From IMG/VR virus record IMGVR_UViG_3300003873_000032, positions 1 to 36,063 of that record: a stretch of 36,063 nt of DNA; one strand, written 5' to 3'. The notes under the pieces were generated by a model, which worked only from the letters and a program-made list of their open reading frames with translations, had not been told where the DNA came from and ran no database searches. Position 1 is the stretch's first letter, and every line of letters starts with the position of its first letter. The translations under genes were made by a program, and so were the position numbers. Positions 7,247-34,997 of this stretch are shown here, in pieces. The stretch is from a virus.

Positions 7247-9405
7247 GACGAACAGCTTTCACAATGCTCCACCTCAGAGTTTTGAGATTGGAGGTAGTAT
7301 AGAGATTTAAGACCAACACGCTCAGCGTAGATGATATCACTAAGGATCTCATAAGCACTGTTAGTGTTGGTGATGTAAGTGTTAATTGATTGACCTTGGT
7401 CAAGCAAGTGCTCTTGACGGATAGCTGCTAAGTCATATAATGCCTTAGTAGGTACATCGAAGGCTAGCTCATACTTACCACGAAGCTTAGCTATTTGAGG
7501 AGCTAGCTGCTTGTTAGAGTAGGTACCAGTTTTCTCAGCTATTAGCTTTAGTACAGGTTCGATACCCTCAGTGGCACCAATGATGATGCTTGAGGTAGCG
7601 GTTGGTGCTATTGCAAATAGTGTTGAGAAGCGTGATGGAGTTGTTAGGTTTGTGCGTTCAAAGAACGGGAAGTTACCACGTTCACCAGCAAGTTTTGCTG
7701 ATGCATTAGTGAATATTGACTTCATAGATTTACTAAGGTACTCCATCTCACTTTTAGCCTCTTTGTCAGAGTACTTGATGTTTTTGCTTGCAAAGTGATA
7801 AGCTAAGTTGTTCATACCAATGCCTATGGCTCGGTAGTTACGATTAAACATTTCACCATCTTTTACAGGGTAGTACTGCCAGTCTATGAGGTTGTCGCTA
7901 GCACGCAACAGGTTGTAAGCTGAAGTAGCCCTCTCAGAGTTACTCATTGTATCCCACTTAGCAACATTGATGCTAGATAGGTTACATAGGGCCAGTAGAC
8001 CTGCTTTAGAGCGCGTAGTAGTTTCATAGGATTGAGTACTAAGATTAAGCATTAAAGTCTCGTCAAGGAGCTCTGAGGCCTCTGTAGGGAGGTGTATTTC
8101 TTGACAAAGGTTTGACTGGTGGATCTTCTGCTTGAACGGAGATTGCTCATTAGAGTTCTCATCAAAGAAGATATATAGGTTACCGGTTTCTGCACGGATC
8201 TTAGCTATTGCATAGCCAAGTTCAGCAGCTGTTACTACCTTTTCACCAAGGCCTAGAGCTTCTAGGCGTAGGTACTCTTTGTCGAAGTCTTCACCATATA
8301 GGGTTAGTAGCTTAGCAGCTATTTTAGGGTCGAAGAGTGTTATATCTTCACCAGCTTCTAAGCGGCGTAAAAATATACGGTTGATCTTGATAGAGTATTG
8401 TAGTTTACGAGCACGTTTAGACTCATTACCACCTTCGTCTTTTAGCTCTAGGAGCTCGAAGACGTCAGCATGCCACCACTGGAAAGTGGCTACACATGCA
8501 CCAGGTCTAGCACCTAGCTGGTTGAATAGGGTTATAACACCTTCTACGTGTTGGATAGTGGGAGTAGGACCAGAGGACTTACCAGCACGACCAATTGTAG
8601 AAGCTCTCATACGGAGATGGGATACATCAACTGCATTGCCCCCACCGTGACGAGAGTACTGACCTATATCGGATACAACTTTGTTGATTGATTCGCTATT
8701 GTCGGCCATTTGATGGAGGCAGCAGCTAGCCATTTGAGCATCAGCTGTTAGGCTGTTTAGCCACTTTGGAGTAGCTTCAGTGTATACGAATGTTGATAAG
8801 TCGTTGTAGCGTTGGATGATATAAGGTACACGTACTGAGGGATCCTCGTAGAGGAACCCTTGGATTGCTAGTCGCATGAAGCCATGTTGGAGTAGTTCTA
8901 CAGGGTTACCATTGATTTTGAAGCTGTACTTATCGAAGAACAGGTTGAGGCCTAGGTATGTTGAGTTGAGGTCTCTTTCAGGTACTATGGCATTGCCTAA
9001 AGCTACTATCTCTTCATCCGAGAGGATAGCTGTGATGTCGATAATTTTATCAGCATCTATTAGTGTTTGAATAACATCAGAGTATTGAGGATACTGACTA
9101 CGACGCATGTTGTAGGTATCCTTGTACATCTTTTGGAGATATAGCCTTTTGGCTACATCATCATATTGAGGAGTTATTTGAGATGTAAGGTTAGAGACGG
9201 TGTCAATAACCTCATCTACCAATACAGATACTGGCATACGGTCATATATCTTAATTGTTAGTGCCTCTGCTAAGGAGTCAGCAAGGGTAGTGTTATCCTC
9301 GCAGGCCCAAAGCAGTACATTGTACATCTTCATATAGTCGTAAGGTACAGCTTCGCCATTCCTCTTGATTACTAGATGTTGTTTGTTGTCTACGAGTTCT
9401 ACCAT
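7243..9405 (-). CDS. nrdA: class Ia ribonucleotide reductase, large (catalytic) subunit
   Basis: 720 aa, close to the family length. Residues 10-100 match a short ATP-cone (LVIKRNGEAVPYDYMKMYNVL), so allosteric control may be retained. Active-site features are the first cysteine in MASCCLHQM (228-229), N432-C434-E436 in SNLCQEI, and C474 in LALCNLSS. Substrate-loop residues SRHGGGNA and RPGACVATFQWWHADV are intact. The tail ends CESCSS (C715-x2-C718), a compact form of the C-terminal redox pair that is re-reduced by thioredoxin or glutaredoxin. It makes dNDPs from NDPs with NrdB for phage DNA synthesis. Confidence 0.95.
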   Translation of the reverse strand: MVELVDNKQHLVIKRNGEAVPYDYMKMYNVLLWACEDNTTLADSLAEALTIKIYDRMPVSVLVDEVIDTVSNLTSQITPQYDDVAKRLYLQKMYKDTYNMRRSQYPQYSDVIQTLIDADKIIDITAILSDEEIVALGNAIVPERDLNSTYLGLNLFFDKYSFKINGNPVELLQHGFMRLAIQGFLYEDPSVRVPYIIQRYNDLSTFVYTEATPKWLNSLTADAQMASCCLHQMADNSESINKVVSDIGQYSRHGGGNAVDVSHLRMRASTIGRAGKSSGPTPTIQHVEGVITLFNQLGARPGACVATFQWWHADVFELLELKDEGGNESKRARKLQYSIKINRIFLRRLEAGEDITLFDPKIAAKLLTLYGEDFDKEYLRLEALGLGEKVVTAAELGYAIAKIRAETGNLYIFFDENSNEQSPFKQKIHQSNLCQEIHLPTEASELLDETLMLNLSTQSYETTTRSKAGLLALCNLSSINVAKWDTMSNSERATSAYNLLRASDNLIDWQYYPVKDGEMFNRNYRAIGIGMNNLAYHFASKNIKYSDKEAKSEMEYLSKSMKSIFTNASAKLAGERGNFPFFERTNLTTPSRFSTLFAIAPTATSSIIIGATEGIEPVLKLIAEKTGTYSNKQLAPQIAKLRGKYELAFDVPTKALYDLAAIRQEHLLDQGQSINTYITNTNSAYEILSDIIYAERVGLKSLYYLQSQNSEVEHCESCSS

Positions 9406-9577: not shown

Positions 9578-9751
9578 TTAGGCTTTGTCAGCAGCTACTA
9601 ATGCAGCTCTTGTTGGAGTAACAAGCTTCTTGATTTCACCAAGTGATTTACGGATACGACCTGAAGTTGCTTTAGTTTGCTTTTGCTCGTAGCTATTGAT
9701 TTCAGCTAGTGCTGTTTCTAAGTGTTGTTTAATTGTGTTTAATTCTTGCAT
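9578..9751 (-). CDS. histone H1-like small basic protein (57 aa)
   Basis: The product MQELNTIKQHLETALAEI..., 57 aa, has a helical first half. Its second half, TSGRIRKSLGEIKKLVTPTR, follows the R-x-R-K-x-x-x-E-I-K-K-L-x-x-x-x-R pattern of bacterial histone H1-like (Hc1-type) proteins, also seen in phages. The expected role is DNA or RNA binding and compaction. The SD AAAGGAACACA is strong. It follows immediately after the structured noncoding block and its terminal stem, so the RNA block and this gene may share a transcript or be separated by that stem. Confidence 0.55.
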   Translation of the reverse strand: MQELNTIKQHLETALAEINSYEQKQTKATSGRIRKSLGEIKKLVTPTRAALVAADKA

Positions 9752-10221
9752 TGTGTTCCTTTTAATTAAAAGCTCAACGTAGCCAGACGGTATAATACCT
9801 ACTGGAAGAGGTTGAGCGTTGGTGCTATACTAGACTAAAAACTAGTACTGGTTTATGGTTGTTGCCTAATCACCATAGTAGTATCAGTAGCTATGACTGA
9901 ATCCTCCATAAGAGAGCTGCTATGATGCCTAAGGTACACGTCCTGAACGAACTCCAATAGTCTTTAATACCTAACCCCTGTCCCACTGGAGGTTAGATTT
10001 TGATAAGGGACTGCCATAATATAACGGATTGATACTACTCATTACTGACGCATTAGTCCTCGTCTATGGTTGCTCTACAATGGGCATTTGATTTTTAAAC
10101 CCTCTACTGGGGTAGCACATTACTGTGTTCAAATGGAGTCCACTACATCGGTGCAAACCTGCCCGCTGTGACACTTAGTAGTATATTACCTCAGAGTTTT
10201 TAGACTTCAGTGGACTGGTCT
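9752..10221 (-). ncRNA. 470-nt gene-free block with strong RNA structure (candidate noncoding RNA R1)
   Basis: No open frame with an SD is seen here, but several helices fit one minus-strand RNA. 10138-10144 pairs with 10209-10215. A three-way junction is closed by 10085-10091/10129-10135 and holds a hairpin at 10099-10113 and one at 10116-10127 with a GUAA (GNRA) loop. 9971-9978/9989-9996 is an 8-bp stem that needs a G-U pair only on the minus strand. A long terminal stem closes 9772-9817. No group I intron core or tRNA is seen. The class is unknown. Confidence 0.55.
9768..9817 (-). terminator. terminal stem-loop with short U-run, end of candidate RNA R1
   Basis: GCTCAAC (9817-9811) pairs with GTTGAGC (9778-9772), with an inner CCAG/CTGG and GGTA/TACC stem stacked inside. 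TTTT then follows, and AATTAAA. This is an intrinsic-terminator-like layout, though the U-run is short and the stem is interrupted. It could equally be the 3' structural domain of the RNA. Confidence 0.4.
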
Positions 10222-10305
10222 TTAGCCTCTAATTTGAGGAAGGGTGAAGATGCCTGCTAGGGTTAGTACTATGTAGATAGTTACACCTATTAAGATGTCT
10301 AGCAT
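10222..10305 (-). CDS. putative 27-aa single-span membrane peptide
   Basis: A 27-codon frame starting at ATG 10305 overlaps the stop of the DUF2158-like gene as TAATG, a junction used repeatedly in this genome. The peptide MLDILIGVTIYIVLTLAGIF... is almost wholly hydrophobic until a short TLPQIRG tail, as expected for one membrane span. The SD is weak (GAAG), so expression would depend on coupling. It could be chance, but the exact junction and the clean hydrophobicity favour a gene. Confidence 0.4.
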   Translation of the reverse strand: MLDILIGVTIYIVLTLAGIFTLPQIRG

Positions 10306-28773: not shown

Positions 28774-29863
28774 CGTTTATATTCAGCAGTAGTCGTTAAT
28801 TACTGCCCGCACCATTATGTGCAGCTACGTGTCTCCACGTAGACTAGACTATATCTTAATCTTTATTTATTTAACTTTCTAGAACAAGGTAGGCAATACT
28901 GAATTGCCCCTTCTAGAGATCTTCTCATAGTTTGTGACCAAGGACTACTAATCTCTTGTAAACAATTATTACATGTGTACACACCAAACCACTTATACTT
29001 AGGTTCACCACCTATAGTAAGTAATTTATATTGCACACCAATTATTGTTCGTCCACCAATGTCTTCACCAATATGAGTCATGAGTTGTTCAAAAGTATTA
29101 GTTTGAGTAGTTTTCTTACTAGCCTTTATACTTTTAGCTCTGACATTCAGATCTTGATTATCTGCTGAATGTTGCATATTTTCTTGGTGTGTTACCCATT
29201 CAAGATTCTCAACAGTATTATTAGTACCATCTTTATCTTTATGGTTGACAAAAGGTTTATTATCAGGATTAGGCAAAAAAGCTTCAGCAACTAGTCTGTG
29301 CATATGTACAGTATAATTAGTACCATCATTAGATAATGAGGCCTTTATGTATGTTGTATGCATTTGCTTATGGTAGCTGCCTGAGCGTATTTTAGTACCA
29401 CTTTTTGTTGTCACACGTAGATTACCCTTGTTTGACACCTCGTAACGAGGTCCATACTTAGGGTCTACAGGTTTGAAAATTTCTTCATTTTTCATTATAC
29501 TTCCTTAAATTAGATAAGTAAGTATACCAAAAAATCTCTTAAAGTTATATAAAGATTTCCCCCATTTCCACTCCACTAGAAGTGTACGAGCATGATGCTC
29601 TAGTCGTTGAACCTTCTCCTGGTTACGGAGCTTGGCTGCTGATTGCCTCTATTACCTACTTTTCAAACCGTCAACATCTGCTTTCGCGATGCTTGTGGTG
29701 TAGATACTTAACAAGGGTTCCCAGCAATTAAAGGGATGCAAAACACACATCACTGTGTGTAAGGGCTGTAACATTACCACACTACAGCCTAATACTTTCA
29801 CTACTATCATTTGTTTATTCTCATCATAGTGTTGGTACTAGGTGTAAATGTGGTATGTTGTTA
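28774..29863 (-). mobile_element. group I intron (about 1,090 nt) inside the MoxR ATPase gene
   Basis: Exon 1 ends in U (GTGGT) and the intron ends in G (AAACG), the group I rule; removal restores ...ENLSG-IPDF... in frame. ACCAC at 29854-29850 can pair with the exon end as P1. Core signatures on the minus strand are AATTGCTGGGAACCC (about 29729-29715), GGCAATCAGCAGCCAAGC (29647-29630), GAAGGTTCAACGACTA (P7 5' side, about 29616-29601) and AAGATATAGTC (P7 3' side, near 28857-28847). A 7-bp P9-like hairpin with GAGA loop is at 28825-28842. An HNH gene lies in the P8 region. Exact boundaries are inferred. Confidence 0.8.
28863..29495 (-). CDS. intron-encoded HNH homing endonuclease (NUMOD4-HNH type)
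   Basis: 210 aa. The N-terminus (EIFKPVDPKYGPRYEVSNKG) is NUMOD4-like. The HNH_3 core follows: VHMHRLVAEAFLPNP, PFVNHKDKDGTNNTVENLEWVT, with the H, N and H/N residues. The C-terminus holds a zinc ribbon (YTCNNCLQE ... QYCLPCSRKLNK). It is encoded inside a group I intron and probably cuts intronless MoxR genes to spread the intron. The SD AAGGAAGTATA is strong, so it is translated from the precursor or excised intron. Confidence 0.82.
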   Translation of the reverse strand: MKNEEIFKPVDPKYGPRYEVSNKGNLRVTTKSGTKIRSGSYHKQMHTTYIKASLSNDGTNYTVHMHRLVAEAFLPNPDNKPFVNHKDKDGTNNTVENLEWVTHQENMQHSADNQDLNVRAKSIKASKKTTQTNTFEQLMTHIGEDIGGRTIIGVQYKLLTIGGEPKYKWFGVYTCNNCLQEISSPWSQTMRRSLEGAIQYCLPCSRKLNK

Positions 29864-33146: not shown

Positions 33147-33881
33147 CTAATCCTTTAGTTTTACTTGTCTTTCTTCTAGTGAAGGGAAGTAGATACCAGT
33201 TAGGTAGCCACGTCCTCTTAAGTTGTAGCAACAGCCAGTGTCAATGTTGACACAGCCATCTGAGTAATGAGGCTCTGGTACTATGTCAGGACCTTGCATG
33301 CGTGCATACTTTTTAGGTGAGACATTGTTTACAGGTGTGTGGCCATAGATGTTGTAGTATGGCGACCTATTCTTTATCCGTGTTGGTTGATCTCTATCCC
33401 ATAGGAAGTCAAAGACTCTACGCTTTGCTGACGATAGGTCTTTGTATGAGCACCACGTGTGGGATACCAGTAGCTCTAAGTTGTCAGAGTCTTTGATACC
33501 AGTTTCTATATATAGTGGTAGCTTAGCTAGCCACTCTATGTCAGTAATGAGGTTATCAATGGATGAGTACTGATTAAATACATCATTACCACCATTGTAA
33601 AACCAGTCAGACTCATTAAGAATATCCTTTATTGATTTATCAGGGTAGTCACGATATATATATAAATCTTCTAGACATTCCTCAGCCATTAGCTCATGGT
33701 TACCTTTAACACACTCTATGTTATTTGAGCGCATAAAATCTACTACTCCTTCGGAGTCTTTACCACGGTCTATAAGGTCACCTACACAGATTATTCGTGT
33801 AGTTGAGCGGTCGATGTCTTTGATGAGCTCTTTTAGCTCTGATAGGCATCCGTGGATGTCACCTATTACAAATGCTTTCAT
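33147..33881 (-). CDS. PPP-type Ser/Thr protein phosphatase (lambda phosphatase-like)
   Basis: The start is ATG 33881 (MKAFVIGDIHGC), behind AAAGGAAACTA; a 23-residue extension to 33950 has no SD and runs into the structured RNA block. The 244-aa product has GDIHG, VGDLIDRGKDS, GNHELM, a VSHTW histidine and YGHTPV, the PPP metal and phosphate residues also found in lambda PP. It removes phosphate from Ser/Thr (and sometimes Tyr/His) or from small molecules such as diadenosine tetraphosphate. Co-located with two other metallophosphoesterases. Confidence 0.85.
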   Translation of the reverse strand: MKAFVIGDIHGCLSELKELIKDIDRSTTRIICVGDLIDRGKDSEGVVDFMRSNNIECVKGNHELMAEECLEDLYIYRDYPDKSIKDILNESDWFYNGGNDVFNQYSSIDNLITDIEWLAKLPLYIETGIKDSDNLELLVSHTWCSYKDLSSAKRRVFDFLWDRDQPTRIKNRSPYYNIYGHTPVNNVSPKKYARMQGPDIVPEPHYSDGCVNIDTGCCYNLRGRGYLTGIYFPSLEERQVKLKD

Positions 33882-34183
33882 TAGTTTCCTTTTATAACTT
33901 ATAGCTAGTAACCCAGAGTTACTACTTATAAATTGTATATGATGTACCACCCAGGGTAGACCTGGATCTCTCGTTTAATCGACGAGGGCTCTAGTTGAGC
34001 TAGTGGTACGGTTGTAGTTAGTCAATGACAACTCAGAGGTCTCACCAGAATGCATACTGTGAGACATGGTACACGTTTCCACCAGAGAATTGTTAACCGT
34101 AATGATGCATTGTCGTCGCCGGCTCTCTGGATAGCTATAGCTTGTGTAACTACTTGTGCAGTTAACGTCAGGCTGACGGGGTG

Positions 34184-34237
34184 TGTACACTGAAGGAATC
34201 GAACCTACGTGAACTAACCTACCAGCTAGAGTGTACA
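34184..34237 (-). ncRNA. 54-nt tRNA-like fold without an anticodon arm
   Basis: A 7-bp perfect acceptor-like stem (34231-34237 with 34184-34190) encloses a D-like arm with GG in its loop (about 34214-34229, 4 bp with G-U) and a T-arm (34192-34208) whose loop TTCGATT is canonical (stem 4 of 5 pairs). Between them are five bases where an anticodon arm should be. It is therefore not a normal tRNA; it resembles the tRNA-like domain of larger RNAs or a degenerate tRNA. It lies inside block R2. Confidence 0.5.
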
Positions 34238-34557
34238 TATGAGACTCCCAAGTTGGTAACTTGGGCTACATACGTAGTTGTTCAACAACTATCTCGATGT
34301 ATCGGATTTAAAGTGTAGTTTATATTCTATATAACTACCAAGGTATCCAACATTTCACGTAGTTGTTGGCTTAACGAGCATTGCTGTCATAATGCTAGAG
34401 AACTTAACCGTGAAGGTTAAGATTTTAGAGGTGGTAAGACTCCAAATAGCATACCATCACTATTGCTAGCTTCCTATCACCTTTTCTAGAATTTGTAAGG
34501 TGCAAGTCTTGTGGGCTGTGATGTACCTTCGAAGTATGCTCTTTGGAATTTTACAGA

Positions 34558-34632
34558 CCGGCACCAAGGAATCTAACCTTGCCATATAGCTTTTACACGT
34601 GCTATTACTATAGTGGTTACACTACATGCCGG
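34558..34632 (-). ncRNA. tRNA-like cloverleaf with 10-nt anticodon-position loop
   Basis: The acceptor-like stem is CCGGCAT/GTGCCGG (34626-34632 with 34558-34564, last pair T-G). The D-position hairpin is at 34612-34623 (4 bp, 4-nt loop). The anticodon-position hairpin is at 34586-34605 (5 bp perfect, 10-nt loop). The T-arm at 34565-34581 has a perfect 5-bp stem and loop TTAGATT, which keeps the U-x-R-A T-loop pattern. The long loop and six-base linker are wrong for a decoding tRNA. It may be a domain of R2 or a decayed tRNA. Confidence 0.45.
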
Positions 34633-34997
34633 ATATAAATGGGGGCACTTGTTGGTAACCCAGTAGTACAAAACTGGAGGAACTTTTAGAGTCTATAACC
34701 AAATGACTACCCCGTTTGTATCAACGCTAGTGAGGTTATCTATCGTGTACATTATTAACGTCCAGTATGCACAATTGGACTTATAGTGACCAATAACTTA
34801 GGTCGTAGCTTCATGTAGATTTTATAGTCTCTTATGACTTGTAGAGCTTAGTGCGATAACTATGTCACCATAGTTAAAGGGTTCTCGTTGTTGTCCCACT
34901 CTACATGAGTAATTTACCTTACAGGGTCCATTCACGATGCTTGCAGCATCTAATGGCTCTTAGTCTCGTCTAGCTGCAAGCAGTCCTAAGCCGTTGT

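Follow-up and report, generated by a model that had tools for sequence, protein, structure and literature searches.

Anticodon-less tRNA look-alikes recur in many unrelated phages, and this observation is more important than the single element from which it arose. That element, designated TLS1, is located on the minus strand at positions 34184-34237 of the window, i.e. the whole 36,063-nt stretch of DNA analysed here. The window is a 36-kb viral contig, a piece of a larger tailed phage, and every credible gene in it is encoded by the minus strand. The shape of TLS1 and its rarity by chance were, like the recurrence of this shape in unrelated phages, observed directly.

TLS1 is 54 nt long. Read on the minus strand from 34237 to 34184, it comprises the acceptor 5' strand TGTACACT (34230-34237); the D-like arm CTAG CTGGTAGG TTAG (34214-34229); the linker TTCAC (34209-34213), which replaces both the anticodon arm and the variable loop; the T-arm GTAGG TTCGATT CCTTC (34192-34208); and the acceptor 3' strand AGTGTACA (34184-34191), consisting of AGTGTAC and the A73 position. 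The initial annotation had described a perfect 7-bp acceptor stem, a GG-containing D-like loop, a canonical T-loop, and only five bases in place of the anticodon arm. Direct reading of the sequence confirms the seven perfect Watson-Crick pairs of GTACACT/AGTGTAC, or eight when the outer T-A pair is included, as well as the GG in an 8-nt loop on a 4-bp stem (with one G.U pair) and the 5-nt linker. The T-arm does have the canonical 7-nt TTCGATT loop, but a T.T mismatch at 50-64 had been overlooked, and four of the five stem pairs are formed. Positions 8-9 are CT, not TA. The discriminator A is followed by CAC, so that CCA is not encoded. Neither ARAGORN nor the Rfam tRNA model (RF00005) reported anything at TLS1. 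The element was also absent from the Rfam gathering search and, on its own strand, from the matches at E values up to 5. A reading of TLS1 as a single unit made up of tandem tRNA halves was rejected on the grounds that its two acceptor strands occur in normal order.

The DNA polymerase encoded in the window is 51-54% identical to those of the environmental phages G002, G003, and G004, and about 30% identical to those of cultured phages. Close relatives, sought via the neighbouring proteins and the element's own sequence, were not found. The relatives at hand are too distant to show conservation of TLS1, and no close relative was found for comparison of compensatory changes in its acceptor. Because TLS1 lacks close relatives, a viral collection of 2.9 million contigs was scanned for the shape itself, using a pattern in which D-loop and T-arm motifs are spaced too tightly for an anticodon arm; the class totals obtained from these scans are minimum values. 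The first scan returned at least 127 matches, of which 13, including the window itself, had a mismatch-free 7-bp acceptor with no more than one G.U pair; the chance expectation for such acceptors is, as a rough estimate, half a match. In a tighter scan, a perfect 7-bp acceptor in register was present in 50 of the 119 usable viral matches listed (about 42%), as compared to 10 of 106 among the matches listed for bacterial genome contigs in the same test. The shuffled-acceptor control gave an expectation of 3.6 of 225 (<2%). These unselected acceptor fractions were used instead of covariation counts on the class alignment, which were not taken as proof because the alignment rows had been selected for paired acceptors.

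Members of the class are about 57-60 nt long. Nearly all of them have T8-A9 and the 5' half of the D-stem, two features that the search did not require. The linkers have a length of 6-11 nt, mostly 8-9 nt, and usually end in ..GTC, like the variable loop of a tRNA. The elements reside in short intergenic gaps or in phage tRNA arrays; one example, in L182, is located 46 nt after the gene for the major head protein.

A covariance model, R1, was built from 38 elements of other phages, with the window left out. The best match of R1 in the window is TLS1 (28.7 bits; E of roughly 2.2e-8), while the next match outside the gap containing TLS1 scores 11.0 bits. A match at 10371-10325 was dismissed, being inside a small coding ORF. 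Class members score 53-75 bits and ordinary tRNAs about 20-49 bits; the score of TLS1 is significant, yet it is not separable from that of an ordinary tRNA and is below the class criterion of >50 bits, which is above ordinary tRNAs. TLS1 shares with the class the perfect 7-bp acceptor and the GG loop of the D-arm (TA GCTC ..GG.. GAGC in the class). Counted against its membership are the CT at positions 8-9, the odd D-stem (CTAG/TTAG), and the T-stem mismatch; its linker of 5 nt is marginally shorter than those of the class. On this basis, TLS1 is best described as derived from a tRNA and devoid of the anticodon arm. That it belongs to the class is plausible, not proven, since the R1 score is in the tRNA range and the D-stem, positions 8-9, and the T-stem deviate.

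Several members of the class occur in cultured phages. Lactobacillus phage 3-SAC12 carries a 58-nt element at 39433-39490, annotated as pseudo tRNA-OTHER; this stretch also has matches in phages Lb and LBR48. In Polaribacter phage Danklef_1, an element of 58 nt (43546-43603) is annotated as tRNA-OTHER undetermined. Matches of 58-60 nt scoring 53-73 bits, i.e. above ordinary tRNAs, were detected in 18 of 397 Lactobacillaceae genomes and belong mostly to one conserved family; the sequence family ACGTGCA.. is kept in at least 11 Lactobacillaceae genomes. Among 396 genomes of Actinomycetota, such an element is present in the starting genome only, and the other matches listed are of normal tRNA length. 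A late transcription activator is encoded upstream of the element in all four lactobacillus loci checked (L252, L314, L423, and L426), and a gene for an HNH nuclease or a small terminase follows downstream in two of them (L252 and L426). Phage A2 possesses a homologue of the L314 element that has a 3-bp mini-arm and in which one acceptor pair shows a compensated change (A-U to G-C); two further odd tRNA-likes lie next to it. A tRNA-like at L413:2636-2785 in the same phage, whose D-loop apparently carries an inserted long hairpin, adjoins the mini-armed element and the other odd tRNA-like. The next tRNA-like of 3-SAC12 (L470:1321-1389) has a 5-bp anticodon stem with a 4-nt loop (CCAGC TTAT GCTGG) and no anticodon. 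A short repeat, AGCACAT AGCTTGGTAGCATAATT GGAGG TTCGATT CCTCC ATGTGTT, which resembles a very small tRNA-like, occurs in four copies in L077 (1112, 1743, 4064, and 5915).

About a quarter of the class (11 of 41 non-redundant elements) have G3:U70, and 10 of these 11 also have A73. The Danklef element is among those with G3:U70. G.U pairs at any other acceptor position occur at most twice in the 41 elements. Alanyl-tRNA synthetase, an enzyme that does not read the anticodon, relies on G3:U70 as its main identity element. TLS1 has A3:U70 and is outside this subset. We tentatively propose that tRNA top halves of about 58 nt without an anticodon arm, with TLS1 as a divergent representative, may form a functional class in phages of many hosts. 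A quarter of them may be built for alanine charging, as suggested by G3:U70 and A73. These would be non-decoding aminoacylated mimics that could serve as processing signals, as decoys against tRNA-targeting defences, or as amino-acid donors outside translation.

For TLS1, the reading that we favour, at roughly even confidence, is a divergent member of this recurrent kind of phage RNA, which retains the acceptor, D-, and T-arms of a tRNA after removal of its anticodon arm and would act as a processing signal or a decoy. TLS1 would be transcribed within its non-coding gap, and the RNA is predicted to fold like the top half of a tRNA, i.e. the elbow and the acceptor. Bacterial enzymes that read this half only, such as RNase P, RNase Z or other 3' nucleases, and the CCA-adding enzyme, could then bind it, as might T-loop modification enzymes. 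Within a phage transcript, it could signal cleavage and mark the 3' end. Alternatively, it could be a mimic that would occupy tRNA-binding enzymes or nucleases and could neither decode nor be cut at the anticodon. For the tRNA-like domain of YrlA, competitive inhibition of an anticodon nuclease has been proposed (PMC7790460). An RNA ligase gene is present on the same contig as TLS1, which is compatible with a conflict over tRNAs. The core of the initial annotation, a tRNA-like domain lacking the anticodon arm, is thus supported by the sequence, the chance estimate, and the recurrence of the architecture in many unrelated phages; its interpretation as a whole, which includes a decayed tRNA as one option, is supported in part.

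The serious rival for the TLS1 copy, which we consider possible though somewhat doubtful, is indeed a decayed phage tRNA from which the anticodon arm was deleted and which is now drifting in a degenerating cluster together with three other tRNA-likes of the same gap (TLS2-TLS4, all on the minus strand). The mismatched T-stem and odd D-arm, less canonical than in the class, agree with this explanation, as do TLS2 and TLS3, which look like partial tRNAs. The cloverleaf of TLS2 (34558-34632) has a 7-bp acceptor and a 5-bp T-stem, together with an altered T-loop (TTAGATT), a 4-nt D-loop, and a 10-nt anticodon loop; its R1 score is weak (7.9 bits). TLS3 (34642-34713; GGGGTAGTCATTTGGTTATAGAC ... GTGCCCC) is a weak candidate for a tRNA 5'-half remnant and has no T-arm. 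Ordinary tRNAs are encoded by G002, G003, and G004, and the latter two possess real tRNA clusters. Arguments against decay are the intact acceptor of TLS1, in which all 7-8 pairs are formed, and the presence of intact anticodon-less elements in many phages, one family of which is kept across species. Also unlike drift is TLS4 (33944-34009). It is the window's best cloverleaf (7+4+5+5 bp, 21 of 21 pairs, TA at 8-9), and its loops are changed: the D- and T-loops are of 5 nt each and are devoid of GG and TTCRA. TLS4 is the second-best R1 match of the window (17.9 bits) and was stable in every context folded.

An unlikely alternative is that TLS1 belongs, as a local domain, to a single large and structured non-coding RNA of the phage; its likeness to tRNA would then be secondary, and in context the 5' strand would pair with an upstream hairpin. 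The 1.1-kb gap that houses TLS1-TLS4 (33873-34997, minus strand) is indeed non-coding throughout and densely folded. No frame displays gene-like codon usage, and there are 21-26 stops per frame. An 87-aa ORF (33975-34238) overlaps TLS1, but its codon-usage score of -0.12 is outside the range for genes of this phage (0.03 to 0.33); it is therefore very likely non-coding and was ruled out as a gene. On the minus strand at about 34280-34230, an 8-bp helix TACGTATG/CATATGTA encloses the hairpin CCCAAGTT ACC AACTTGGG. This helix overlaps the 5' strand of the TLS1 acceptor, and the two structures are mutually exclusive. The acceptor forms when TLS1 is folded alone (P about 1), whereas with at least 75 nt of flank the competing hairpin wins. 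The acceptor is likewise lost in context in 19-33% of other class members, so the in-context folding test is non-discriminating; the competing hairpin may represent an alternative state, or it may simply reflect a limit of thermodynamic folding. Against a domain of a large RNA, the T-loop, the GG of the D-loop, and the acceptor are jointly tRNA-specific (E of 2e-8 with a tRNA-derived model), and no known large RNA family matches. The gap has no Rfam family match; at lax cut-offs, the sole match over it is an antisense, sub-threshold plastid UTR. BLAST searches of phages and of the related phages with the entire gap as query gave no match.

Chance resemblance is highly improbable. The fold energy of TLS1 alone is just 1.5 sd better than that of shuffles, which would fit an accidental likeness. 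A descriptor demanding a TTCGANN loop, a T-stem with at most one mismatch, a perfect 7-bp acceptor, and GG between them, with no room for an anticodon arm, nevertheless matched once in the window and only once in 250 Markov-shuffled windows, and in DNA of related phages totalling about 290 kb the comparable R1 matches were exclusively pieces of tRNAs or permuted tRNAs. An origin of TLS1 as an integration remnant at an attachment site (attP) can practically be discarded: integration does leave partial tRNA genes (PMC9897764), but those represent one tRNA end, while TLS1 has both ends paired and the middle alone missing.

Permuted tRNA-like units with perfect 7-bp acceptors were identified at L034:2556-2640, 2692-2770, and 7263-7371 and on the minus strand of L036 (1424-1347). 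Such units occur in G003 and G004, where they are flanked by non-coding DNA, and have the order T-arm, acceptor, short loop, acceptor, D-arm; ACCA is encoded in G003. The D-arm of TLS3 resembles, by eye, that of the unit at 2692-2770. The units in G003 and G004 match the Y RNA YrlA at 37 bits (cut-off 69). In both phages they are adjoined by a gene for a 731/739-aa protein (L034:4852-7047; L058:391-2610, minus strand), and the two proteins share 29% identity. The first member of the pair has no Pfam match, and the MXAN_6230/SCO0854 family is matched weakly in NCBIfam; a putative function of the protein is akin to that of Ro60. Phage G003 also contains a complete tmRNA (L034:4016-4363) with the tag VNNMNFNPTAELAAA. 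Judging from G003 and G004, identification of TLS1 as a YrlA RNA was attractive. It was ruled out by arm order, since the arms of TLS1 are in normal order and the window contains no permuted units. YrlA (RF02553), which has no match in the window, is comparable in being a tRNA mimic of bacteria and phages that lacks an anticodon arm; in contrast to the open acceptor of TLS1, its module is permuted, has the acceptor capped, and sits on a Ro-binding stem.

Among other known systems, TLS1 shares with canonical tRNA (RF00005) the acceptor stem, the GG D-loop, the TTCRA T-loop, and the order acceptor-D-T-acceptor, but lacks the 7-nt anticodon loop on a 5-bp stem. The tRNA-like domain of tmRNA (RF00023) is also a top half without an anticodon arm, and the alanine identity pair G3:U70 is found in it as in about a quarter of the class. 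Unlike tmRNA, TLS1 is a 54-nt element with a D-arm and A3:U70 and has no tag frame or pseudoknots; the window has no match to RF00023 or RF04321. The mascRNA-type signal of MALAT1 is a small eukaryotic tRNA-like that directs cleavage of a longer non-coding RNA by RNase P and RNase Z. TLS1 is similarly small and tRNA-like and is predicted to direct cleavage, although in a phage and not in a eukaryote. Mitochondrial tRNAs have a similarly truncated shape; they have lost the D- or T-arm and kept the anticodon (PMC7609411, PMC7730189), while the phage elements lose the anticodon and keep the elbow. tRNA mimics as such are already known, but among openly licensed papers we found none describing phage tRNAs from which precisely the decoding arm is missing and in which the acceptor and elbow are retained. 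The class consists of elements systematically missed by tRNA-finding programs. If functional, they would point to phages exploiting tRNA recognition for purposes other than translation. Cultured lactobacillus and Polaribacter phages, in which such elements are now filed as undetermined or pseudo tRNAs, make them immediately approachable.

Two further features were observed on the minus strand of the window. A second stretch of about 490 nt without a credible ORF (approximately 9751-10240) contains many short hairpins, and no tRNA-like element was found in it. A group I intron, with two Rfam matches, is located at 28825-29795 around an HNH-type ORF (28863-29495) and apparently splits an AAA ATPase gene.
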